A DNA stretch of 64,000 bases from Lobosporangium transversale (taxonomy: Eukaryota > Mortierellomycota > Mortierellomycetes > Mortierellales > Mortierellaceae), in assembly GCF_002105155.1 (NCBI RefSeq), contig NW_019028999.1, forward strand, positions 372,001 to 436,000, in the 5' to 3' direction. This document shows positions 1,583-30,600 of this stretch, piece after piece; the stretch's first letter is position 1, and each line of letters begins with the position of its first letter. The notes under the pieces are model-generated. The model had not been told where the DNA came from and ran no database searches. It was given only the letters and a program-made list of their open reading frames with translations. The position numbers were made by a program, and so were the translations under genes.

Positions 1583-2541
1583 TCAATGGAGCCTGATCAG
1601 GAATAGTCAAATGGCTATAATGTAAAGGTAACTTACCCATATGGGCTCGGCGAACGACCCCGTCCGCTATCACGGTAATAAGGCGAGGGAGATCGGCCAC
1701 GATAGCCTCCAGAATGATAAGGGGAGCGAGGGCGATAGCCGTACCCCCGGTCGGGTGATCTCGAATAGCCACGTCCACGATATCCATAGTCATATGGGTC
1801 CCTTCCATACGGTCCTGGAGAGCGCCCTCGGCCGTAGCGAGGAGGCGGGGGAGGCCCTCGGCGATAATCACTGTATGAAGGCCCATATCGCCTAGAGCTA
1901 GGGCCTCGGCAAAAGCGTGCCAAATGGCCGGGTTCGCCACATTTGAAGCACTTCCCGGATTTGACATCCATACCCTTCTCGCTCGCTTCTGGACATTCTC
2001 TCGCCCAGTGTCCAGTTTGATTACATAAGAAGCATCCACTTCCAGGACCGCCAGAGCGTCTTGACCACTCCACTGAAATCCTGTTTCCATCGAGCTCATA
2101 TCCATTCAACTTACCCACAGCATCATCAGCATCACGAGGATCTTCATATTCGACAAAAGCAAAGCCTCCATGCTTTAACTCCACAGACAACACACGGCCG
2201 TATTTTTCAAACTGATGAATAGATATGTGAATAAAATTAGTAAAATTTAATTTATCAAGCAGCCCCAATTCTATAGTCCTTTTTTTAAAATCATACCAGT
2301 TCCTCAACATCTCTACGCTCGGTTCTTGGACTCAGGTGCCCGACATAAACTGTGGTATGTGTACTACTTGGAGGAGCAGCATTATCCACTATAAATGTAG
2401 TAATGAGTAGAGTGAGTCGATTTTCGAAATATTGAATCAGACTTTTATCAATTGAAGCATCCAGGCTAATACAGCCCGCTATAATAAGCTTTTGAATAGT
2501 ATACCTGGTGGAAGAGGAGGGGGAGGAGGGGGAAGTGACAT
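1583..2541 (-). CDS. SR-like RNA-binding protein with RRM and two CCHC zinc knuckles
   Basis: Predicted pre-mRNA splicing or mRNA-processing factor acting in the nucleus. Minus-strand exons are 2505-2541, 2297-2388, 1637-2211 and a tiny last exon 1583-1592. The start ATG at 2541 opens a short Pro-rich N-terminus. An RRM follows with RNP2 (VYVGHL) and RNP1 (GGFAFVEY), split by an intron. Two CCHC knuckles come next ([14 protein letters not shown] and [14 protein letters not shown]), then a Tyr/Gly/Arg/Pro/Ser-rich tail with RSPSPY-type repeats. The order RRM, knuckle, RS-rich tail recalls SRSF7 and plant RSZ proteins, but two knuckles rather than one are present. The last donor sits on a TAA: if that intron is retained, translation stops after PYG (at 1633), giving 235 instead of 237 residues. 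Identification as an SR-type RNA-binding protein is solid; the ortholog is not. Confidence 0.85.
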
Positions 2542-2825
2542 GGCTGCGTGAAATTGCTGATTAATGTGGAGAACGAAAAGAGGTGATGGGCAAAAGGGAA
2601 AAAAAAAAAAAAAAAAAACCTTGGCATCCGTAGATTTGTATCTGAAACTACGTCACATGAGGAAAGGAAATAATGAAGGCAATAGTGATTTGTTATTTCA
2701 TTGGTGGAGTTTACAGGAAATAGCCCTCATGCTAGCCCCAAGCCGCAATTGTCATGGACACTCTTTTGTTTTGACCACCGAGTTAACTTATTGATTTGGA
2801 TTGTGACAGGATCCAACTTTTACAA

Positions 2826-5800
2826 ATGGCTGCACGTCGCAAATCAGGCGGCGCAGATGCCCGTTTCTATGAATCACCAGATACTATTGCTCAGTTTGAG
2901 CGCATCAAGGACGAACTTGTACGAGAGCTAAACAAGAGGCATCCGGGATCGGACGTATTGCTGACTGCGAGGGAATTGTCAAATTTTACTCATGCCCTCC
3001 AGCAATTTCAGGAAGATGTCCTTGGCACCAATAATGCGCACTTATTGCCATCAGCCTCAGCAAGGATTCCTGCAAAAGTTTTTCGATGTGACGTCATCAA
3101 TGGATCTTCAGCAATATACAAGGCATTAAGAGCCGCATACGAGTATCGCTTTGCACAAGGCTGGCGTCGTTGGGATCTCTCTAGCGCAGCCAGAAGAAGT
3201 CAAAATTTGGAGTTAATCGCACATATTCGCCAGGAACTTATTTCTCAAGGCGTCATTAAGAATCCTGTAGTTGCGTTTGATGATTCGATTAGTGAAGAAG
3301 AGCGAGAGAAACTTGAGTCATCGGTTGAGCGATTAGGAGGTATGTACAAGTCTTTTAGCAAGTAATATATTCAAATATGGCACTGGTCAATATCAAACAT
3401 AATCTTACGGACAGCTGCATGGATCAATAGGAACCATAACATCAGATCTTGACCAGGCAACGCATATTATTCATCACTCATCAGAGGAACTGGAAAGTCC
3501 CGAAGGCGAAGAGTGGCTTCGCACGCTAGAAAAGAAGGATGGCAAGGTTCTGGTTCATTACTGGTATTATCCTGACTCATACGACGAATGGTTGCTCGAA
3601 ACATCAAGCGAATTTATGGACCCGGAGCCCGCACCGGAACACACTGGTGCTTGGAACATTTCTGCTAGGTGGATCAGAGACAGTGAAAAGTACAATGAAT
3701 GGATGAATGAAGAGGACTACGAGCCATCTTCAGATCAGGCAAGTGACCAAGAATCAACTGCAAGCTCGCCTGCGCCATCTAATCAACGTTTCGGCAGCAA
3801 ACGCGACAATTCTGATAAAACTGAACCAAACCCCAAGAGGTTGAAACGGAGCTCGTCAGTGACACCTTTGGATCTCCAACCCGATTACCCAGGGCTTCAA
3901 GTTGTCTCCTTGGAAGAGAATGCGCCCCGAGGACGTGGATCAAAAAAGAATGAGTATGAACCTATCATTGGGGGCGATTTAGCTAATATCCCTACAATAG
4001 ATGAGAATATCCTGCCATCTCGCTCAGTTTCCCCAAAGAATGCTGAGGCTGTTGAGACAGTGAGCTTGCAGATGGATTTAGATCAAATGGGGAAAGAGGA
4101 TAAAGGTGAAGCAAATCCTGCTATAGTAGAGGGAGGTGGGGCTACCGAGGATGTTGGGAATGCAAATCAAGTGGATGCGGAGCGTTCGCGACTCGAGGAA
4201 GAAGCTCGTCAATATCTCTCGCCACAATCTCAAGAAGTCATCATTCCTTCCTATGCTGCCTGGTTCTCGCTTTCTAAGATCCATGAGATCGAACAAAAGT
4301 CATTACCGGAGTTCTTCAATTTCAAAAACAGGAGTAAGACACCAACGGTTTATAAGGATTATCGAGATTTCATGGTGAATACGTACCGCTTGAACCCCTC
4401 AGAATACCTGACTGTCACTGCTTGTAGAAGAAATCTGGCTGGTGATGTTTGCGCAATTATCAGAGTACATGCGTTTTTGGAGCAGTGGGGGTTGATCAAT
4501 TACCAGGTATTAACAGCAACTATTACTTTTATCTCAAATGAAAAAAAAGGGGGGCAGCAGGAAGACATATCGTGGCTTACCCATTCTTTTTATCGTCTCT
4601 AGACTGATCCCGATACCCGTCCTTCGACAGTTGGACCTTCCTTCACTGGTCACTTCCGCATCGCTGCCGACACACCAAAAGGCTTACAGCCATTTCAGTC
4701 TAGGGTTATGCCTTCAGAAACAGCAGAAACAGTGGATATTAAATCAAATAATGAACATACAGGGACGACTAAACTGGATCCAAATTTAGCTCTTCGCCGC
4801 AACATTTACACTAGCAGACCGGAGCTAAGCTCAAAAGATAATGATGAAAATGCAGAAAAAAAGCATCGGTTCAACTGCTTCACCTGCGGTGTAGACTGTA
4901 GCAAGAATCGATACCATAGTATCAAAACCAAAAATTTTGAGCTCTGCTCCAACTGTTTCACACAAGGTCGATTTCCTTCCACTATGGCTTCAGGTGACTT
5001 TATCAGATTCCAGTCACAACATCATTCAGCAGATGAGCCATGGACAGATCAGGAAACCTTACTTTTATTAGAAGGCTTGGAGATGTACGGTGAAGATTGG
5101 AACATTATTGCAGACCATGTTGGGACTCGAGGTCGTGAGCAATGTATCTTGCACTTTTTACAGCTGCCTATTGAAGACCCTTATTTGGAGAGTCCTGCGC
5201 AGGATCAGCTGGGATCACGTCGCTCTCAAAAGCTACCGTTCAGCGAATCTGAGAATCCTGTTATGAGTGTGGTTGCCTTCCTCGCAAGTGTCGTTAACCC
5301 TGGAGTAGCTGTAGCAGCAGCACAGAGTGCTTTGAAGACCCTTGCATTAGCAAAGAATGATGTGAAAACTTTGACTGAATATGAAGCTACTCAAGCGATT
5401 CCTGAAAGCTCCATGGACATGGACAAGTCATCAAGAGAGGAGGACACTAATACTGACCGCTCAAAAGAAGACATTGATATGTCGGACACAAATGCTAGTT
5501 TGAAAGAGGCCAAAGCAAACGATATTGAAGGTATACCGCACTCGATACTGGAGAAGGCTGCAGCAGCAGCATTAGGCTCTGCTGCGGCGAAAGCAAAAGC
5601 ACTGGCGGATTACGAAGAACGCGAAATCCAGAGGTTGGTAACTGTTGTAGTTGAGATGCAGCTCAAGAAATTGGAGCTTAAACTTCAGCAGTTTGAAGAG
5701 CTGGAAACAATACTTGACACTGAGAAGAAAGATCTTGAACGCCAACGAGAACAACTGTATCTCAACAGATTGATGATGAAGGAGAGTATTATGTCAATGC

Positions 5801-18159: not shown

Positions 18160-19029
18160 GTTAGAGTAAAAAATTAGTTCACATAAAGACCTCTGGAGAC
18201 GCAAGAGATGTCTTGCCTATTTATTTGCTTTACCTGTGTTATTGGACCATGGAAAGCTCTATGTTGAACTGTAACCATCCAACAGGGCAGGGATGCATTT
18301 GTTCAAATCTTAGTGTATAGTCTAAATAGATTAGGTTATTGACGTACTGGACCTGGTGAGGTTTTCTCTCTCAGCTGTTCTCATTATAATAGTATCTTGT
18401 AGTCAAAGTCGTCGTTTGGATCCACACACCAGCCAGGTGAGTAGTAATTGATCCTTGAGCACACACACATAGAATCACTCTCGCGCGCAATAGCGTATCA
18501 CGATCTTGGATCAAAAGCATGAGACTTGGATGTTGTAATCCGCCACCTCCCTCCACTTGACAGACAGATAAGCAGTGTGGCTTTGGTAAACAAAATTCAC
18601 ACCTTCCTTCCTTGCAAATGTCGCTTTTTCAAACAGCCTTTGATTTTCTCAACTTGCATTGCCTTCTTTTATGCTCACAAATTCTATCCCTCTCTTTCTT
18701 TCTTGTTACCATCGTTATCGCCAATCTCATCCCCTCATTCTTATTACACTCCCCACTCTTCCCACTTTTCGCCTTCTCCACTCTTTAGTTTTAGTATTCA
18801 CTTTGTTCGTGAACCGAATGTCTTGACATCTAGCTCCCTTCTAAAATTCTCTTCACTCCTTCATTTAAACATTCCTGAGTATTCATTCATTTGCATTTCC
18901 TTCTGTTCATTTGTTTCCTATTACTTATATTGCTTCTGTCTTCTCACTCTTTTTTCTTCTCACTTTTTTTTCTTCTCTTGAGTTTTCCAACATCACTACA
19001 CACTTTGCTGCAATAACACGGGTTACTCA
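18160..19029. other. Intergenic; pyrimidine-rich leader of the forkhead-like gene
   Basis: No gene is seen. From about 18600 to the ATG at 19030 the plus strand is strongly C/T-rich, with many CTTT and TCTC blocks. This resembles the leaders upstream of other plus-strand genes in the window and probably contains promoter and 5' UTR. Confidence 0.5.
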
Positions 19030-20883
19030 ATGTCCACACCACCATTGAGCCCTTCTACTAAAACCTCTTCCGGGCCTGTGTCGCCTTCAGTCTCTCGGCG
19101 GAAGCTGTCGCGAACCCAACATTCCAAACCAAATGAGTCTTGGTTCCTTATTCTTGTTAATGCCTTCAAAAGCAACTTTGAACAGACTCTTACCTACCGA
19201 GAGTCAGAACTTTATGCCTGGATCATGCAGGCCTATCCTTATTACCGTCACGATACTCACACAATGCAAACTAGTGTCAAGACGACCTTGTCTTCATATG
19301 AATGCTTTCGACAGAACGGCAGAAGTACATGGACATTCATTCCGCGGCGAGCCCTTGTCCATTTAGAAAGCCTCAAGTCACAGGAAAACCGCAGAGAGAG
19401 CAATATTTCTGGTGAAGAAGACGAGGAGGAGTTCGAGGATGAAGAACAAGAAATTCCAGATCAAGATCATGGCGAAGGCGATACAGAATCTCATTACAAT
19501 TACCGAAGTCTGTATACTGACCATCCTAACCGGCATGAGGCTCACGAAGATGGACCCAGTACTAGGATACGATATGTCGACAAGCACTTGGACCTGATGG
19601 ATGAGGATTCACCAACTTTATCAATCGAAGAGATCCAGCGTTTTAAGCAAGAACACTCTGGAACTCAATCTCGCAAGTTGAAGCGCAAGGCTTCTGGTGA
19701 ACATGGAAGTCGTCCCAGGACACGATCACCACCTGCGGCCCTTCAGGATGAGTGCAGCATGTCCATGAAGGCATGGTATAATTTGCTAGTCCACATGTTT
19801 GAGGCTTCACCTAAGCAAAAAACCATCCGTGAAATTTTTGCGTGGGTCCATGACAATTATCCAATTTATCGGGACGCTCCGGATAATACATGGCAGAAAG
19901 ATTTGACAGCCGCATTGGAATCAAACCCTTTATTCAAGGCAATGGGCCGAGGAAGGTGGCAAATGGTAACGCAAACAGCACAGCCTATCATAGTGGTTAA
20001 CGAAGGCACAGGAACGCCAGGAAGTGGCTCTGCAACTAATCCACCTTCAAAAGTCGGAGATGATGCCACCGATAGTCCTTCTGTGACAGAGGATGAGGAT
20101 TGGAAGGCCATTGGCTCAAAACGGCTACTCAACTTCTCCTTCCGACGTTATTCAATTGCGACAGATACTGTCCCTAAAAATCAATACAAGATCGGGTCTA
20201 CCGTCCCTGCTAATTCGGATGGTCAAACAGCAACAAACGGCAAAGTAAATGTGGCTATTATAGCGTCTCCTGGATCATCTCTGTCCACCACGGCATCTGG
20301 AGGCAATCTTCTACCCCTTGATCATCGAGCGACGGCATACAACACAACGGGAAGACGATTTTCTTCCTATCATCAACCAACTCCAAAAAACTCCCCTCCT
20401 CTTGCAGCTACTACTACTGGACTTTTACCAATCGAAGAAATAGGCAATCATATTAGAGGTGCATTGTCTCAGTCGGCATCGTATGAAGAAGATTCCGCCA
20501 GGAGATATATGGCACCATTACAGAATGCTATCAATTCTGCTGTCCTTGCACTCCAATCGCAACAACCTGATCAGCACCAGAATACTTTGACCACAGTGAT
20601 ACCAGCTACAGCATCTTCGCACATAGGCAACTTCCAGACAAATCGCGATTTACAGAATACATCACAGATAGGTCGTCATGAGGATCAAGGATCTACCCAG
20701 AAACCAACCACAGCCCTCGTTTCCACAGATGACGCCTCACCCACTGTGTCTTCCTCAAGAACGGTATCAAATCCTGAATCTCAAGTAGAGCCTGAGATCC
20801 TAATACCCAATAGCGAGAACCTTGCTTCTGATCAAATGGATGCCATTCATGCTTTGGCTTTATTGTGCGGAGGCGGTGTTTAG
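19030..20883 (+). CDS. Putative DNA-binding protein with two divergent forkhead-like winged-helix domains
   Basis: A single uninterrupted exon encodes 617 residues. Two regions share a forkhead-like skeleton. The first (about 38-108) has WFLILVNAF, then LTYRESELYAWIMQAYPYYR and a C-terminal strand GRSTWTFIP. The second (about 248-315) has WYNLLVHMFEASPKQ, then TIREIFAWVHDNYPIYRD and GRGRWQM. In canonical forkheads these positions read Y.LI..AI, LTL.EIY.WI...FPYYR and GKG.YW.L, and the recognition helix contains W(Q)NSIRHNLS; here it is replaced by TMQTSVKTTLSSYECF and TWQKDLTAALESNPLF. An acidic stretch, a basic segment (RKLKRKASGEHGSRPRTR) and a Ser/Thr/Gln-rich tail complete it. It is probably a lineage-specific transcription factor. 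The fold is inferred; DNA specificity would differ from normal forkheads. AATAAA follows at 20905. Confidence 0.6.
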   Translation: MSTPPLSPSTKTSSGPVSPSVSRRKLSRTQHSKPNESWFLILVNAFKSNFEQTLTYRESELYAWIMQAYPYYRHDTHTMQTSVKTTLSSYECFRQNGRSTWTFIPRRALVHLESLKSQENRRESNISGEEDEEEFEDEEQEIPDQDHGEGDTESHYNYRSLYTDHPNRHEAHEDGPSTRIRYVDKHLDLMDEDSPTLSIEEIQRFKQEHSGTQSRKLKRKASGEHGSRPRTRSPPAALQDECSMSMKAWYNLLVHMFEASPKQKTIREIFAWVHDNYPIYRDAPDNTWQKDLTAALESNPLFKAMGRGRWQMVTQTAQPIIVVNEGTGTPGSGSATNPPSKVGDDATDSPSVTEDEDWKAIGSKRLLNFSFRRYSIATDTVPKNQYKIGSTVPANSDGQTATNGKVNVAIIASPGSSLSTTASGGNLLPLDHRATAYNTTGRRFSSYHQPTPKNSPPLAATTTGLLPIEEIGNHIRGALSQSASYEEDSARRYMAPLQNAINSAVLALQSQQPDQHQNTLTTVIPATASSHIGNFQTNRDLQNTSQIGRHEDQGSTQKPTTALVSTDDASPTVSSSRTVSNPESQVEPEILIPNSENLASDQMDAIHALALLCGGGV

Positions 20884-20910: not shown

Positions 20911-21850
20911 AGAGTTTAGACTATCCCTTAAACCGTCAACCTGGCAAATTTGCCATTATAAATGGGCTTAAAATCCAGCAATTCATGGGCATTGTCTTGA
21001 AATTTTATTTCGATGTCGAAATAAATGACCGAAAACTGAGTTGATTCATTCTACCGCACCTTAGAGCTTGCTCGGCAAGACTTGATTTGTCACATCATTT
21101 ACTTGCTCGTCTTCTTGCGTTCCCTTGATGTATCTGGGTTGGTAAACACTGCTAGTAGAGTTTGTTGGGCCTGTTGAAACCAGAGGGAGCCACAGCAACA
21201 TATCATACCCAAGGTGATACAAATATCTCTGTTGGAGTGAGTGGTGAACTGTGTGTGGTTCAGATGTAGTGGACATAAACGGCGAAAGAATGCATCGAAA
21301 GGATGTGAGCGGTTATGAGAGCAAGGAAGAAGGGGTTGATATGCCTGTTCAAGTCCTTGGCAAGAGGGCATGAGTAGCAGTTGTGATCACGAGTTGATTT
21401 CGGTGAGTCCGCATAACAATGGTATAGTTTCTAGACCCTATCTTCCACGTACAGCATTGCATTATTGTTGTTTTCAGACCTGGCACCAATCATGCGAGGT
21501 ATTTCTCTTTCTGAGGGTTCCTTGTGTTAAACAGCCAGACAGAAAGCTTAGAAGAGATACAGACACAACGGTGAAAAAAAAATGTATGCGAGCAAACAGT
21601 TGCTGTGTTTATTTGTTGTCTGCACATGCCTTCTTTCATCGCGGGCTTTTTTTTTATTGTTTCGCAAATCTTGTTTCCTTTTTTGTTCGTCAATCACTGT
21701 GTGCACGAATAAGCAGCTGAAGCATCTCTTTGGTTTCTGTACATGTATAAACACATTTTACATCGTGGCGTCTTTTTTTGTTCAAAACACAAGCGTTTTC
21801 CATTGGTGCTTCCAAACAAACTTTATTTTGGCGGCCACTCCACAATCCAG

Positions 21851-22443
21851 GACAAGGATCAGCTGGCAACAGGCCTTAACTCTGTCTTCGATGTCTGTCT
21901 GTGTGCATATGAAGCGGACCCATGCATAGGGTGCCATAATGAGGAGAATGATAGGATCGTGATGTCCCAAGACTCTGATTTTTTTGCGTACGAATGAGTC
22001 TGCTTCCTAGTGGGACCCCTTCCGCGCCGTAGACGGAAGTTTGGGGTTTACGATGTAGACAACGTTATCCAAGCACTAAGACTGCCATCACACGCGCATC
22101 TGGTGTTATTCTGTGCCATCGCAGGCAATGACTACTCAAGGAACCTCGAGACGTTAGGCCCGGTTAATAATCTTCGATTAATTCGAAACGTTGCGTGGAA
22201 CGAGAACTACAATAAAATGCTTCGGGACTACCTAAGGGAAGCTAGTAAGGTGTTGGGAAGGAACGCAGCCTCTGAAGAAGGCCGTTTCAGAGTAGCTCTC
22301 CGCATTTTTACTTCCGACCATCAAACGTCGGCCCAAGCGCTACCATTGAACAATGAGTTCGATAACTTCAAGCAGCGTCTACTCAATGGAAAGGATCTTC
22401 GTCATAGAATGACTCAGCAAAGGCGAGCGCAGCGTCGCAGAAC
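21851..22443 (+). pseudogene. XPG/FEN1-like (PIN-fold) nuclease domain, N-terminal part of the Fanzor fusion, with in-frame stop
   Basis: The frame encodes the internal (I) region of the XPG/FEN1 nuclease family. CAYEADPCIG matches the catalytic EA[ED]xxC motif, RIVMSQDSDFFAYE matches VVSxDSDLLAF, and LFCAIAGNDYSRNL matches the xLGCDY region; the acidic metal-binding residues E, DSD and GNDY are present. A TGA at 21995-21997 interrupts the frame right after FFAYE, and the same frame continues (FGVYDVDNVIQALRLPSHA) to 22443. No plausible intron removes the stop: the only GT...AG nearby is 13 bases long. The exon probably starts after CCAG at 21850. It ends at a donor (GTAAGG at 22444) that joins in phase to the next Fanzor exon at 22527. 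A complete N-terminal region (MGIKGL-type) is not found, only degenerate traces near 21.26-21.37 kb. Confidence 0.7.
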
Positions 22444-22526
22444 GTAAGGAAGCTCAAGCTATAGTTTTGGCCTTGAAACCATACGTCCCCAATACTAATC
22501 GTTAGTCCCCTTCTTGGATAATGTAG

Positions 22527-24909
22527 AGACACACCATCATTCTATATAGCGAAAGGGTCACATAGGAACCAGTTCCGGCCCATCTTTTCTGACAAGGCGA
22601 GCATATTGAATGGGCGCACAGTTGATATCAGTAACTGCCATCAGCACGATAGGCCGGGCCTTAAGCATCCACCACGTCGGAAAAAGGCAAAAAAGAAGCA
22701 ACAGAAAAAACAAAAGCGGAAGCACAAAGGCAAGAAGCCCCACAGGGCTAAAAAAGAAGGTGCACCAATTAGGGACTTGAAGGATGCTACGAAGGTTGAT
22801 CACAGCTACAGCAGTAAGCACCTTATCAAGGCCTTAACAATTGGGTCCCTTAAGGCCTCCATGGCAAGGAAAGGCGGACTGGACGCAGATGAAAGGGATA
22901 GTATTGCAAGCCAGATCCGAGGGGCAGTTGTTGTCCTCAACCGACTACGCCGCTATGCATACTGGGCGATTGCCTTGGACATTGAGAGGATCATGTGGTT
23001 ACCAGGGGCAGCAAAGTCGAGGAAAAAGGCACTGGACGAGGTCTTGGATAGCAATGATTATTCCTTCCGTCTCGCCACCCTTCTTTTGAGTGGTCAAGGT
23101 GGCCCCAATTCAGCTTACGCGAGGGCAAAAAAACAAGGAAAGGCGGTAGAAACGCCCCATCATCACCTCGCTTATGAACATTTCAAGGCCACCACTGAAC
23201 TTTCCCCAATAAAGGATATAGACATCACATTGGGGGACGTCCAAGGCTTTGATCCCAAAAAGATCTCATTTCCAAGAGCGTCAGACTTACTAATGGGCCA
23301 AGTACAGACATCATTAAGGCAGCACTACAGGAACGCAATGGTATAGCTTGTGTAAGGGTATTTTCATGCATATTCTGCAATCAAATGCTCTTTATTCACA
23401 CCTTTTTTTTTTCTTTTTTTTTTTTTTTCTAGTTTGATGTCGAGAAAACAAATGAAGATATGAGCGACATTGAGTTTTTTCTGCGGGAGAACAAAAAAGT
23501 GAAAAAATACTCAGACTTTCCTACGTCCCCCTGGTCACCCGGGTATGTGTATCTGTCTGAACACGCCCTAGTTGACATCCTCTGGGCGAACGAAGATACC
23601 AAGCAGCTGTTGGAGCGTATTCTGCCTCTCAATAATGCTTCCAAGACTGCAATGTATGAGTGTGTACAGGGAACAAAAGGGGTTTTGATACAGGCTCTCT
23701 TTTGTGACATTGGAGGTGATCGCATGGTTCGTGGATATCAAGACAAAGTATCCCTGCAGTCACAGGACAAAGATCTAACTCGGTTCAAACTCAAAGGAAC
23801 GATTTCTACCAACGGTCTAGTTCTGAATCTACTTGCCTATGACACAACCCAGACGAAGAGACAGCAGCAGTCTGACGTAGATGAAGAAGACCCCAGCCAA
23901 GAACTGGAGCTTTCTCAGGGATTTCTCAACACGACGTGTTCAAAGGCGGCCGGTGAAGACCTGACAGATGAAGACTACGCAGACATAAACTGGAAGAGGA
24001 GCTCCAAACTGCTTGAAAACGTTGAGCTCACATTCAACAAACCAGGGCGATGCCCATCCGCAAACACCACAACTATCGTCGGATGTGATCCTGGTATTGT
24101 TAACGCCCTTACGTTTTCCTCCCTGGATCCTCACAACCCTAACTTGCGGCAAACGGTAAAGGTGAGAAGCAGGTTCTTGTACCTCCCCGTCCTCCGCTTC
24201 AATCACCTGTTGAACAAAAGGAAGCGTGAAAAAGGAATGATTGAGGTTGAGAGCGCCATCCCTGTGTTTGGAAGGGATACGTATAATGAGTACTTTCAAT
24301 GGATGAACGAGGAGTCTCAGACACAGACAGGATCAACGAATTTGGATGTGCTTCAAGAGTTCTACGAGTCCAGATGGCACCTGAAAAAAAATGGGACCTA
24401 CGAAAGGCTCAACGAGCTACGTTCGACTACGCGGTACAGCGAGTGTTGAAGATGCTTGGGGATAAAGGAGTACTTGTCGTCGGCCTAGGGTCCTTTGAAA
24501 GTAGTAAAGGAGTTCCCAGCAAGCACACTGCTATAACGAGACATCTTGTCACACAGGTATGGCTTTTTTTAAAAAAGTAAGCAAAGCTGGAAAGCCATAA
24601 AACCCTTGCTAATAAACGACTGCCATTTGAAACGCTTAGATCAAAGCACGAGGACACTTCGCTGTAGGAGCGCACGAATTTTACACCAGCGCCCGCTGTC
24701 CCCGACCCCTCTGCGATAGCTTTTTAGAGATGCTGTACCCTCGTTCTAAATATTGGAGGACATGTAAGGTATTCTTCGACCGTGACGCAGTAGGGGCGGA
24801 AAACATCGCAAAAATCGGTCTTGCTCAAATTGAGAGGCAAGAGAGACCTGCAAAGTACAGGCTCACGGAAGAGTCGCCTGCTCCGGCTGCAAAGCGCGCA
24901 CGATGCTAG
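22527..24909 (+). pseudogene. Fanzor (eukaryotic TnpB-like RNA-guided nuclease), frameshifted
   Basis: Exons 22527-23340, 23433-24556 and 24640-24909. After a very basic linker (RRKKAKKKQQKKQKRKHKGK) comes a helical region, then the TnpB/Fanzor core: FKLKGTISTNGLVLNLLAYD, RuvC-I GCDPGIVNAL (Asp codon 24087), a helical hairpin, KGVLVVGLGSFESSKG, RuvC-II-like HEFYTSARCP (Glu codon 24676), a partial zinc finger and RuvC-III FDRDAVGAENI (Asp codon 24784). The protein ends with a Lys/Arg tail. One base is missing or two are extra in the A8 run at 24384-24391: the frame changes between ESRWHLKK and WDLRKAQRATFDYAV, so the copy is broken unless this is a sequencing error. Such proteins use a guide RNA to cleave DNA and are carried by transposable elements. 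The Fanzor assignment is firm; activity of this copy is unlikely. Confidence 0.85.
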
Positions 24910-24920
24910 ACACAAGTATT

Positions 24921-24938
24921 TGGGTGCCGGCACACCCA
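24921..24938 (+). other. Hairpin directly after the Fanzor stop codon
   Basis: TGGGTG and CACCCA form a perfect 6-bp stem around CCGGCA, 11 bases after the stop at 24907-24909. Guide RNAs of TnpB and Fanzor systems are commonly transcribed from the 3' end of the gene and the flank, so this is a candidate structural element of such an RNA. It could equally be chance. Confidence 0.3.
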
Positions 24939-25186
24939 CAAAAAATTTGTAAGTTCTGTTTATTTTCGTCTCCTGTATCCTCTCTAATCTTTTGCCCCTG
25001 AATTTCTGGACTAACTTTAAAAACCGTACAGATCAACAGATAACTTTGACTTCGCCGAATTACGTAATTGGAGACGTAAGGGCTCTCGAACGATGTTACA
25101 GACGCTACAATCAGCCATCTGTGTCTGATAAGTTAAGTTTGCCACAGGGCAAATTTACTGTCAATAAATTGATCAAAAAGCTTTAG

Positions 25187-25741: not shown

Positions 25742-27956
25742 ATGAACCCAACACAGCCACAGCCACAACCTGCTATCACCCCTGAGATGGTTGCCAATCT
25801 GTCACAGGAACACATCACTAGCGTGTTGAATGTAAGTGTGTGTTGTTCATAAAGAAACAACAAAGTGCCTTTCGTTACGATGATTGCCAACAGTGTCTCA
25901 TTCTTGTAGTTTTATACTTACAATATACAATACCCTTTTGTACGATATGTCAACGTATAGGCTGTAAGGAATATGAAAGCCGCTGGCGCAACAGAACAGA
26001 CCAACCAGCAATATGCCCAGCTGATGTCCTTGCTGCGTGCTTATCAGGCTGCCCAGGCTCAAAACCAGCAGCGTGCCCAGGCTGCCCAGGGTCTTACGCC
26101 ATATCAACAACAGCAGCAGCTCCTTCAAATGCAACAACAGCAGCAGTTCCAGCAGCTTCAGCAAGCTCAACAACAACAGCTTCACCAACTACAACAACAA
26201 CAACAAGTAGGCGCTTCTGTCCTACCTCCTACTCAGGGCTCGCCATTCTCTCAGGACCAATTGGTAGATTTACGCCATCAGATCATTGCCTTCAAGCTCA
26301 TCTCTGCTAATATGGCTGTCCCCCCAAATTTGCAGGAGGCCATCTTCACTCCCAAATCAGTTGAACAGGTCTTGAGCGCCAAGGAACCTACGGCTTCGGT
26401 GGCTGGAAGAGTTGTTGATGTCGCTCGTCATCATTTGTCAGAACAAACTCCAACCGCATCAGACTATAACGCATATACATCACCTTTTTCATACCTTCAG
26501 AAGACTTTACCCTCGGCAGTACATGCGTCGCGTCAGCAGCGCTTGTTGATCCCTAGTATCTCGCCAGTTGGTATTGATCCATACGCATTGGCTCAGGAGC
26601 GCGATAATCGTCTGAAGAACCGTGTTAAATATCGTATTGAAGAGCTAGATGGTCTTCCTAGCAATATCGCCAGTGAGGCTCTTGACCCCTCTGGAGGTCT
26701 TCTGGGCCAAGAAAACAAGGCGCCACCATCTGGACCCAAGCTTAGGGCCTTGATTGAGCTCAAGGCGCTAAGGCTTCTGGAGAGGCAAAAGAAGGTATAT
26801 GCTTTGTTATCCTGTCATTATCTTTTACATTTTGGGGAAATTGATTGACTGATCGATATATATATATGCATCACTATCTGCAATACTAGCTTCGTGCGGA
26901 AATTATTAAGGGAATGTCAAAGGCAACTATGCTCGCAACATCTACTGATCGAGCCGCTTATCGTAGAATGAAGAAACAATCCTTACGTGAGGCCCGAATG
27001 ACCGAGAAACTTGAGAGGCAACAGAGACAGGATCGCGAGGGACGCGAGAAGCAGAAGCATCTAGACTACCTTCAAAATATTGTAAATCACGGACGTGATA
27101 TGATTCAATGGCATAGGACACAACAGATGAAACAGAACAAGTTGGGACGTCTCGTTCTTCAATTCCACGCTCATGTGGAGAAGGAGGAAGCCAAACGTAT
27201 TGAACGTATCTCTAAGGAGCGTCTAAAGGCTTTGAAGAACGATGATGAGGAGGCATACATGAAGCTTATTGACCAGGCCAAGGATACTCGTATCACACAT
27301 TTGTTGCAGCAGACCGATTCTTATCTCGCTTCACTCGCTGAAGCTGTGACAGCTCAGCAGAACGACTCTATTCATACAGATGCAACCACTCGTGGTGGCG
27401 TCGAGCTTATGGATGACGAATCGAACTTTGATTACGGTGAAGTACCAGTAAGTCCCATGTTTATTTTAAGACGTCTAAAAACGATTCCCTTCCCTTTTTA
27501 CAGTATTATATACCGGTTAAATTAGGCTGACCATCTATCAATGTCCGTACATTCATTTAGGACGAGAGCAGGCGTAATGACTATTACAATATCGCCCATA
27601 AGATCCAAGAAAGGATTGTTAAGCAACCATCGATTTTGACTGGAGGAACACTAAAAGAATACCAGATGAAGGGTTTGCAGTGGATGGCATCACTTTATAA
27701 CAACCGTTTGAACGGCATTCTGGCAGATGAGATGGGACTGGGTAAAACCATTCAGACTATCTCTTTGGTTACATTCTTAATCGAAGCTAAACAACAAAAT
27801 GGTCCATTTTTGATTCTCGTTCCTCTCTCGTAAGTGAGATGTCGTGGGATTATTTATTTGGATGCATATATTTGAGACATGCTGTTATGGAAGTCTGTAT
27901 GGCCTGACCTAATATTGATTTCTCTCTCTTTCTCTCTTTCTGTCTCTTTCTCTCTC

Positions 27957-28010
<54 letters not shown>

Positions 28011-30600
28011 AAGTACATTGACTAATTGGACTCTGGAATTTGAGAAATGGGCTCCTCAGGTGACCAAAGTCGTTTATAAAGGTGTCCCCTCACAACGCAA
28101 ACACATTCAACAAACAGAGATCCGACATCGTAATTTCCAAGTGCTATTGACGACTTACGAATATGTTATTAAGGATAGGCCAATTCTCAGCAAGATTAAA
28201 TGGGTTTACCTTATCATTGATGAAGGTCATCGTCTAAAGAACGCCAACTCTAAACTGTTTGTGACCTTGACTCAACATTACTCTTCTCGCTACAGACTCA
28301 TCTTGACGGGTACACCCTTACAGAACAACCTTCCTGAGTTATGGGCCCTCCTCAACATGGTTTTGCCCCGTGTCTTCAATTCTGCCCAATCTTTTGACGA
28401 GTGGTTCAACACGCCCTTCGCAAATACGGGTGGTCAAGATAAAATCGAATTGAACGAAGAAGAGGCTCTTTTGATCATTAAACGTCTTCACAAGGTCTTA
28501 CGACCTTTCTTGCTCCGTCGTCTCAAGAAGGACGTAGAAGCGGAATTACCAGACAAGGTAGAGCGCGTCATTCGGTGCAAGATGTCGTCTCTTCAGCTCA
28601 AGCTGTATAACCAGATGAAGAAGCATGGTATGCTTTTCACTCAGGCAGGAGAAAAGGGGTAAGAGTAAACTCTATTACGTAAACTTTAGGTTTTGGATGT
28701 TGAGTTTGCTGGATTTGGCAATGGCATGCTGCAAGGTTTAAAGCAAATATAACAAAAATCTGCACTCAATACCAATCCTGTTTTGATAACTACTTATTAT
28801 CAAAACGAATCACATACAAACTAATACTTATATATCCTGATTGTTTAGGCGTACTGGAATTAAGGGCCTGAATAACACTATCATGCAATTAAGGAAGATT
28901 TGTAACCATCCGTATGTGTTTGAGGAGGTCGAACGTGTTATCAATCCAGCCAAGGTGAACAACGATCAGCTGTACAGGGTTGCAGGAAAGTTCGAACTTT
29001 TGGATCGAATGCTCCCAAAGCTGTACAAAACGGGGCACAGAGTTTTGATTTTCTTCCAGATGACAGCCATCATGAATATCATGGAGGATTTCTTGCATTT
29101 CCGTAACTACCAGTACATGCGTTTAGATGGTTCCACAAAGGTAATTTGATTTTCCCATCAATGGATTGCTTAGCTTCAGCAGATGTTGGTAAATACAGAC
29201 GTCATGGATAGAATGTTGACAATAGTTGTGTGTTTTGTTACTTTTTGTAATGCTAGTCGGATGACCGATCCGCTCTTCTCAAGCAATTCAACGCTCCGGA
29301 CTCGCCATATTTTGTCTTCCTGCTAAGTACAAGGGCAGGAGGTCTTGGTCTGAATTTGCAGACGGCAGACACTGTCATTATTTTCGATTCTGATTGGAAT
29401 CCTCACCAAGACTTGCAGGCACAGGATCGTGCGCATCGTATTGGTCAAACGAAAGAGGTGCGTATCTTCCGATTGGTGACAGAAAAGTCTGTGGAGGAGC
29501 ATATTTTGGCTCGAGCTCAATATAAACTCGAGATTGATGGTAAAGTCATTCAGGCTGGAAAATTCGATAATAAGAGTACAGCTGAAGAGCAAGAGAGATT
29601 CTTACGTTCACTGTTGGAGAGCGACAATAACAAGGAGGAGAACGATGTAGAGGAAGAGGAGATGAATGATGAAGAACTTAACGAAATTGTAGCTCGAACA
29701 GATGAGGAGATGACTATTTTCAGAAAGCTCGATGCTGAACGCAAGCGGATTGAAGACGAAGCATTTGAGCGGGACGGTATCCGGCTTGAGCGTTTAATTC
29801 AAGAATCAGAGTTACCAGAGATTTATCTCCACGATGAGGATCCACACCAGAGTGTGCAGGTTGAGGAGGATCTCGGACGTGGTCAAAGAGTGAGAGCGGA
29901 GACTCGATATGACGATGGATTGACAGAGGAGCAATGGCTCGAGGCGCTTGAGGACGAGGACAAGGATGTGAACGAAGTCATTGCACAAAAGTTGGAGCGA
30001 CGCAGGAAAAGAGAAGAAAAGAGACTCCAGAAAGAGAACGCTCTTGCGGCTGGTGAGGATCTTGATGCAGAACCCAAGAAGGGTCGTGGTAGAGGAAAGA
30101 AGACCTTACGCGATGAGGATGAGGAGGAAGTGGAACCTGCAACCTCCAAGAAGGGTCGTGGCCGCGGTACCAAGTCCTCTACGTCTAATGAGATCACAAA
30201 GCCAACTGCTAAGGGTAAGAGGGGTAGGAAACCCGATGGAGCTTCCGCTAGTCAGGATACACTTGGTGAGAACGAGCGTAAGGCTCTAACAAAGATTATG
30301 GAGCAATGCTATAAAGCGCTTGAAGAATGTACTGTGGTGGAAGAGGAAGGACTCCGACGCCGCTGCGAACTATTCCTTCATTTGCCGAGCAAGAAGGAAT
30401 ATCCTGAGTATTATCAAATCATTACTCGTCCGATTGCCATGGATATCATCAAGAAGCGGATGAGATCAACGCACTACAAGTCTCCTGCTCAGTTTAAAGA
30501 GGATGTCCATTTAATGTTCCAGAATGCACGTACTTTTAACCAGGAAGGCAGTTGGGTGTATGTAGACTCGGAGCGTCTAGAGGTAACAAAATGGCTGTGC

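Follow-up and report, generated by a model that had tools for sequence, protein, structure and literature searches.

A fossil mobile element of Lobosporangium transversale with remains of a gene joining a predicted XPG/FEN1-fold nuclease domain to a Fanzor

The stretch analysed here, referred to as the window, comprises 64,000 nucleotides of the Lobosporangium transversale genome (assembly GCF_002105155.1, contig NW_019028999.1, positions 372,001 to 436,000 of the forward strand). It contains a decayed copy of a mobile element with the remains of a gene, in which an exon for an XPG/FEN1-like, flap-type nuclease domain is followed by an intron and by exons for a Lys/Arg-rich linker and a Fanzor, an RNA-guided nuclease. 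The junction was recovered as the initial annotation, made from the sequence alone, had placed it: exon 1 extends to 22443 and leaves two bases of an unfinished codon, the donor GTAAGG begins at 22444, the acceptor TGTAG occupies 22522–22526, and the exon starting at 22527 is in the Fanzor frame. The gene was modelled with three introns, exons 2–4 being placed by splice sites common to relatives (Table 1). L-numbers denote genomic loci of L. transversale, L001 being the window copy, and P-numbers denote homologous proteins.

Table 1. Features of the decayed element in the window (window coordinates).
Feature	Position	Strand	Basis or remark
Family-1 mobile element, decayed copy	20920..25042	+	4123 bases
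Junction of ~1.46-kb internal deletion	21846..21847		XPG N-terminal part and upstream DNA gone
XPG/FEN1-like exon 1, remnant	21847..22443	+	tblastn; in-frame stop at 21995–21997; relatives match FEN1/EXO1/Rad2 by profile and fold
Intron 1, phase 2	22444..22526	+	GTAAGG...TACTAATC...TGTAG; separates the XPG exon from the Fanzor exons
Exon 2, linker rich in Lys/Arg, then first portion of Fanzor	22527..23340	+	
Exon 3, mid Fanzor, RuvC-I (CDPG) to GLGSF strand	23433..24556	+	frame broken at A8
Exon 4, HEFYTS with the alternative catalytic Glu, zinc-finger region, RuvC-III (FDRDAVG), stop	24640..24909	+	
3' non-coding end, expected guide-RNA location in a Fanzor	24910..25042	+	

The window copy is a dead fossil of a mobile element, since it carries a ~1.46-kb deletion, a stop codon at 21995 and a frameshift at an A8 run. 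The deletion was recognised by comparison with L009, in which the alignment skips from 1682 to 3145 at 21846/21847, and with other loci, which behave likewise. About the first 146 XPG residues are missing, and with tblastn, window positions 21842–22405 were aligned to residues 147–334 of the L009 XPG exon; the first two of seven acidic XPG positions are absent. Within the remaining XPG frame an in-frame TGA is found at 21995–21997, and eight A residues at 24384–24391 shift the Fanzor frame, where copies with nine stay in frame. The run was found at ten further locus entries: six have nine A residues (L003, L004, L007, L008, L013, L018), L009 and L011 have eight, L015 has ten, and L001 is the window copy over again. 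In the zinc finger one Cys is replaced by Trp (YWRTC vs YCRTC in L004 and L008), and Pfam Cas12f1-like_TNB scored 23.4 bits on the window copy, under its cut-off of 26.3. The single polypeptide that had been predicted for this locus cannot be made from the window copy because of the deletion, the stop and the frameshift.

For the analysis of further copies, the 42.7-Mb genome was subjected to a six-frame protein search, which gave at least 135 matches to Fanzor exon 2 and at least 84 matches to an XPG query consisting of the last 149 exon residues. At 56 of 60 places that retained the Fanzor start (exon matches with a query start of 10 or lower), an XPG match lay 5' on the same strand, an arrangement not due to chance, and at 50 of these 56 places the XPG-to-Fanzor distance was 76–128 bases; two pairs with identical scores on C48 and C50 may be one duplicated stretch. 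The copies were sorted into family 1, to which the window copy belongs, and family 2 (L019–L026, L028, L032), which are about 40% identical in exon 2 and 25–27% in the searched XPG part, and whose DNA can be aligned only over an antisense fragment (see below) and an exon stretch of ~50 bases. The order XPG, intron, Fanzor is identical in family 2, and the position and phase of intron 1 are common to both families, with donor GTAAG and acceptor TAG in 18/18 family-1 loci (window and L002–L018) and 9/9 family-2 loci (L019–L026, L028); the length of an A-tract inside the family-2 intron varies. Nine of ten family-2 loci have an XPG exon with an open frame of 341 codons, L028 being interrupted. 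L021, one natural copy of this family, has no interruption in any of its four exons and yields 1209 amino acids upon in silico splicing.

Three protein searches gave 17 distinct homologous proteins, with named sources in Lobosporangium, Podila, Benniella, Mortierella and Entomortierella, all of them Mortierellomycota (for Mortierella we take this placement as given). The XPG protein search returned only proteins of Mortierellomycota and two with the source 'lgn'; distant XPG relatives are missed by it because it needs shared 5-residue words. When each half was compared by BLASTP, both parts were found in 10 of the 17 proteins (P0002, P0003, P0004, P0008, P0009, P0011, P0012, P0015, P0016, P0017), so that the two domains are not always separate in homologues. 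Among these are P0002 (Benniella sp., 1160 amino acids), P0003 (Podila verticillata, 1260 amino acids) and P0004 (Mortierella antarctica, 1136 amino acids), while the Fanzor stretch covers just 17–35 residues in P0008, P0009 and P0015 and several models skip parts. P0001, P0006 and P0015 are from L. transversale itself, and in P0001 the last 17 XPG residues are spliced to the Fanzor part at the junction position of the window. P0005 consists of a Fanzor part without N-terminus and is marked partial. XPG sequence alone was present in five proteins: P0010, P0013 and P0014 are short models ending within the XPG domain, P0007 ends on a 1.5-kb contig at the place corresponding to the donor, and P0006 is treated below. 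Among the close relatives searched, none of the XPG-only or Fanzor-only proteins proves that the family includes an XPG gene on its own. The earlier proposal of a flap-type (XPG/FEN1-fold) domain joined via a Lys/Arg-rich linker to a Fanzor within a mobile element was thus supported, and the arrangement recurs in relatives.

A DDE_1 fragment (precomputed PF03184) is joined to the XPG N-terminus in P0014 from Entomortierella lignicola, on a short contig, and is probably a neighbour or a nested insertion. Viral relatives were sought by one scan of viral contigs with the Fanzor alignment A1, in which 10 stretches matched the pattern and none was confirmed. When the XPG model was compared with viral proteins by fold, general FEN/XRN-like nucleases were obtained, and viral relatives were rejected.

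The assignment of the N-terminal domain relies on profile and structure comparison. A five-sequence profile matched Rad2 (E 4.3e-6) and M. jannaschii FEN-1 (E 4.8e-6) in the PDB. The AlphaFold2 model of P0006, with a mean predicted local distance difference test score (pLDDT) of 87, gave 94 PDB matches at E <= 0.001, the best at 2.6e-10, and the best 50 of them were all FEN1, EXO1, XPG or Rad2. Seven acidic residues, which we take to correspond to the FEN1 active-site positions (D33, D85, E170, D172, D195, D197 and D247 in P0003 numbering), were invariant in 5/5 sequences of alignment A2, whose members go down to 30% identity with the first. The domain thus has the fold and the seven catalytic acids in common with the XPG/Rad2/FEN1/EXO1 family, as well as an N-terminal Met-Gly in the complete A2 sequences; it differs in being only 12–18% identical to the solved members listed and in forming part of a mobile-element protein instead of a repair enzyme.

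The Fanzor part was assessed by motifs and fold. Fanzors are characterised in PMC10711439 and PMC11423790 by a DPG motif, an alternative Glu that precedes a C4 zinc finger, and the Asp of RuvC-III, and the part studied here has these in common with Fanzor1 proteins (SpuFz1, PpFz1, GtFz1). GxDPG of RuvC-I was present in all four Fanzor-part sequences of A1, which includes family 1 (CDPG in the window). P0003 has NEFWTS at 1192 as the alternative-Glu motif and FDRDAVG at 1227 as RuvC-III, and the former reads HEYYTS in family 2 and HEFYTS in family 1; P0002 and P0004 end before this region, and P0001 has no RuvC-III FDRD. For the C4 zinc finger, Pfam Cas12f1-like_TNB gave 33.2 bits with P0003 (cut-off 26.3) and 13.8 with P0001. 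In the model of P0005 (mean pLDDT 45) the RuvC part alone is confident, and its top four PDB matches were all SpuFz, the Spizellomyces Fanzor (best E 1.7e-6), which was also first in the Fanzor-part profile search (E 0.003); the predicted fold is therefore closest to SpuFz. Like the Fanzor1 genes of Mucor, Rhizopus and Spizellomyces described in PMC3627910, this one also resides in a transposable element, and its host too is an early-diverging fungus. In contrast to Fanzor1, the fusion has an N-terminal XPG/FEN1-fold domain of ~340 residues and a long basic linker, and the position matched by eye to the WED-domain motif reads TNG in 3/4 and CNG in 1/4 sequences, vs the TDG given for Fanzor1 in PMC10711439.

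The joined gene, with a conserved phase-2 intron and with both catalytic sites in relatives, is present in many copies and in several genera of Mortierellomycota. Because splice sites and frame are conserved and gene models exist in several species, intron 1 is very probably spliced, which would give one protein. A number of observations weigh against a joined protein with two working nucleases, and the first concerns the junction. In L. transversale the XPG exon is annotated alone as P0006 (341 amino acids, 13 members), which stops at the donor. Two adjacent genes in one element could be envisaged accordingly, an XPG gene ending at the TAA within GTAAG and a Fanzor gene downstream, merged by a spurious intron of the gene caller, and the end of P0007 at the corresponding place and the stop of the XPG frame at the donor in both families agree with this. 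Yet any phase-2 GTAA donor produces such a stop automatically, two distant families agree in donor, acceptor and phase, and predicted proteins of several genera run across the junction, so that two separate genes appear highly improbable. The same in-frame stop right at the exon end, created by the phase-2 GTAAG donor in both families, would also allow both forms to be made, a free XPG nuclease upon intron retention and the fusion upon splicing, with their ratio regulating activity; as the intron phase by itself suffices to explain the stop, which may have no function, this regulated version was considered unlikely.

On the same side of the balance stands the weak sequence signal of the XPG part: Pfam XPG_I scored 13.0 bits with P0003, under its cut-off of 24.9, and did not match P0002. 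Since the XPG_I cut-off was not reached and profile and fold were matched, the domain is, on the predicted model, XPG-like by fold and active-site pattern and divergent in sequence. Active-site departures were also seen. In A3, an alignment of 11 database proteins in which fragments leave some acidic positions uncovered, D85 is replaced by N and E170 by V in P0007, while P0011 has gaps at D195/D197; at the genomic loci, L007 and L013 have N at D197, and G replaces D33 in L032. The Fanzor might therefore be an ordinary guided nuclease to which the XPG part contributes as a DNA-binding or bubble-recognising module, or nothing at all, for which the two departures of P0007 speak, as does the loss of catalysis in XPG-fold domains of some proteins. 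This inert or binding role is nonetheless doubtful, more so than the regulated pair of forms, given the seven acids invariant in all five A2 sequences at identities as low as 30% and present also in the other complete or partial A3 proteins except P0007 and the gapped P0011. Judged from sequence, both nuclease sites are likely to be active.

The state of the genomic copies counts against the joined protein as well. At least one lesion was found in each of 9 of the 10 family-2 loci modelled, L021 being the sole fully open one, and the last ~47 residues of L021 are in a different frame from L024. None of the seven family-1 loci modelled was complete: the XPG frame of L008 is interrupted around residue 125 and then open to the locus end, and in L004 the XPG match begins only at 170, again followed by an open frame to the locus end. 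Selection between copies was estimated from the ratio of nonsynonymous to synonymous substitution rates (dN/dS), which was 0.59–0.67 for the XPG exon (L029 vs L009, L030 or L015) and 0.63–0.67 for Fanzor exon 3 (L029 vs L009, L030); introns were 91–93% and exons 91–96% identical among those close copies. On these figures, with introns having diverged about as far as exons, the close copies look largely neutral, with little constraint. Closer family-1 pairs gave dN/dS of 0.23–1.47, and pairs of XPG exons from family 2 gave 0–0.68, on very few changes. Constraint is visible in the sequences solely between families and genera. At the 3' non-coding end, no guide-RNA structure was apparent, the window and L009 ends folding no better than shuffles (z 1.06 and 0.64; z -1.53 for L021), and conservation of this end between L009 and L029 was not above that of exons; among the best 40 places, 24912–25042 is 89–100% identical.

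All considered, the window holds a dead copy of an element whose sole recognised gene probably encodes an XPG/FEN1-fold nuclease joined by a basic linker to a Fanzor. The element itself was delimited by comparison of copies. Family-1 elements, of which the genome holds dozens, start with ACTATCCC and finish with CAACAGATA (CAAACAGATA in L017), and each end sequence has approximately 40 or more matching places. The ends were identical with differing flanks in 6 of the 7 loci inspected (window, L009, L010, L013, L015, L017), whereas L011 and others in the end search start about 24–25 bases later than the family-1 left end. The longest relatives measured are L009 (5746 bases) and L013 (5778 bases). 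Family 2 has near-inverted ends (TATAGYCCGTYCCATT), seen in 6 of 8 loci inspected; by that pattern L023 has neither end and L034 the left end only. No target-site duplication was discernible by eye in 12 copies of families 1 and 2 with matching ends. In the 5' non-coding 2.0–2.1 kb (L009, L020, L021) there is no stop-to-stop frame of more than 111 codons, and no second large gene was recognised for that reason. A frame of L019, presumably DDE-like, lies outside the stretch common to other family-2 copies. L033 and L034, with a family-2 left end and no Fanzor match, were considered as autonomous transposase partners and discarded: reading their open frames, without a family search on them, revealed no recognisable transposase. 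With elements lacking a recognised transposase or target-site duplication, and family 1 lacking recognisable inverted ends, the XPG-Fanzor protein might itself be the mobility enzyme, combining guide-directed cutting with structure-specific processing and leaving the copying to host repair; we regard this as quite improbable.

For the favoured XPG-Fanzor fusion, the following course of events is proposed. Removal of the intron would give the single protein, the Fanzor part of which may be guided, as in other Fanzors, by an RNA made from the 3' end of the element, and would address targets such as the empty donor site, where the RuvC site would cut. The basic linker could serve nuclear import or nucleic-acid binding. 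The tethered XPG domain, acting in cis, might then trim what the cut leaves behind, be it a displaced strand, a flap, an R-loop or a broken end, and repair would be steered to copy the element back into the empty site, so that it persists. This chain from guide RNA through RuvC cut and XPG trimming to copy-back repair is put forward tentatively, its chances being somewhat below even. Nothing was found in favour of a genome-defence role, at which no test was aimed.

Fanzors with extra domains and elements coding for a Fanzor plus a separate nuclease are already known, and the XPG/FEN1 fusion appears new in that no description of it was found. This absence holds for the literature searched, which mostly lacked subscription papers, and does not prove absence from print. 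According to PMC11423790, PpFz1 from Parasitella likewise carries an extra domain (FRI), which is not a nuclease but a small insertion that binds cyclophilin and lies in the RuvC region. The PGv-1 Mariner element (PMC3627910) is similar in that it codes for a GIY-YIG nuclease besides a Fanzor; there the two are separate proteins, the nuclease fold is another one, and a transposase is encoded too. If correct, the fusion would be a naturally occurring RNA-guided nuclease whose chain contains another nuclease active site of unrelated type. It would offer a direct route to asking how transposons benefit from Fanzors, the attached domain hinting at a need for processing of ends, flaps or R-loops. 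Possibly it could also be used as an existing editor with two nucleases and a different repair outcome.

Several copies showed further peculiarities. L027 (4300–5336), one of the four unpaired places, represents a third lineage of Fanzors, at about 60% to family 2; its intron donor and acceptor are as in the fusion loci, yet no XPG match lies upstream, the two full-length XPG queries yielding no tblastn hit at this locus below E 0.09, which could indicate domain loss. In the family-1 locus L031 (386–1921), XPG and Fanzor share one frame of 512 amino acids and the intron is absent. This copy was rejected as a processed, intronless proof of splicing, as the parts were brought together by a deletion at GGCGAGC instead of being joined at the splice sites. 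In family 2, the 5' non-coding region contains a ~550-base antisense piece, 85–86% identical to family-1 Fanzor exon 3, in all nine loci compared (L019–L026, L028; L021 ~1751–2361, L020 2439–2985). L034 (123–2200) is an internally deleted derivative of ~2.1 kb with both family-2 end regions and possibly a non-autonomous element. Near 943 in L010, the family-1 left end directly abuts a family-2-like right end (TTTTTAATGATGG/ACTATCC), and a short way upstream on C37 there are family-2-like Fanzor matches, as if elements had been joined exactly end to end. In the window, the element is neighboured by a Forkhead-domain gene at 18982–20880 (Pfam 2.5e-17) and by another gene at 25742–29149, which from its motifs we take to encode an SNF2/Sth1-like remodeller.

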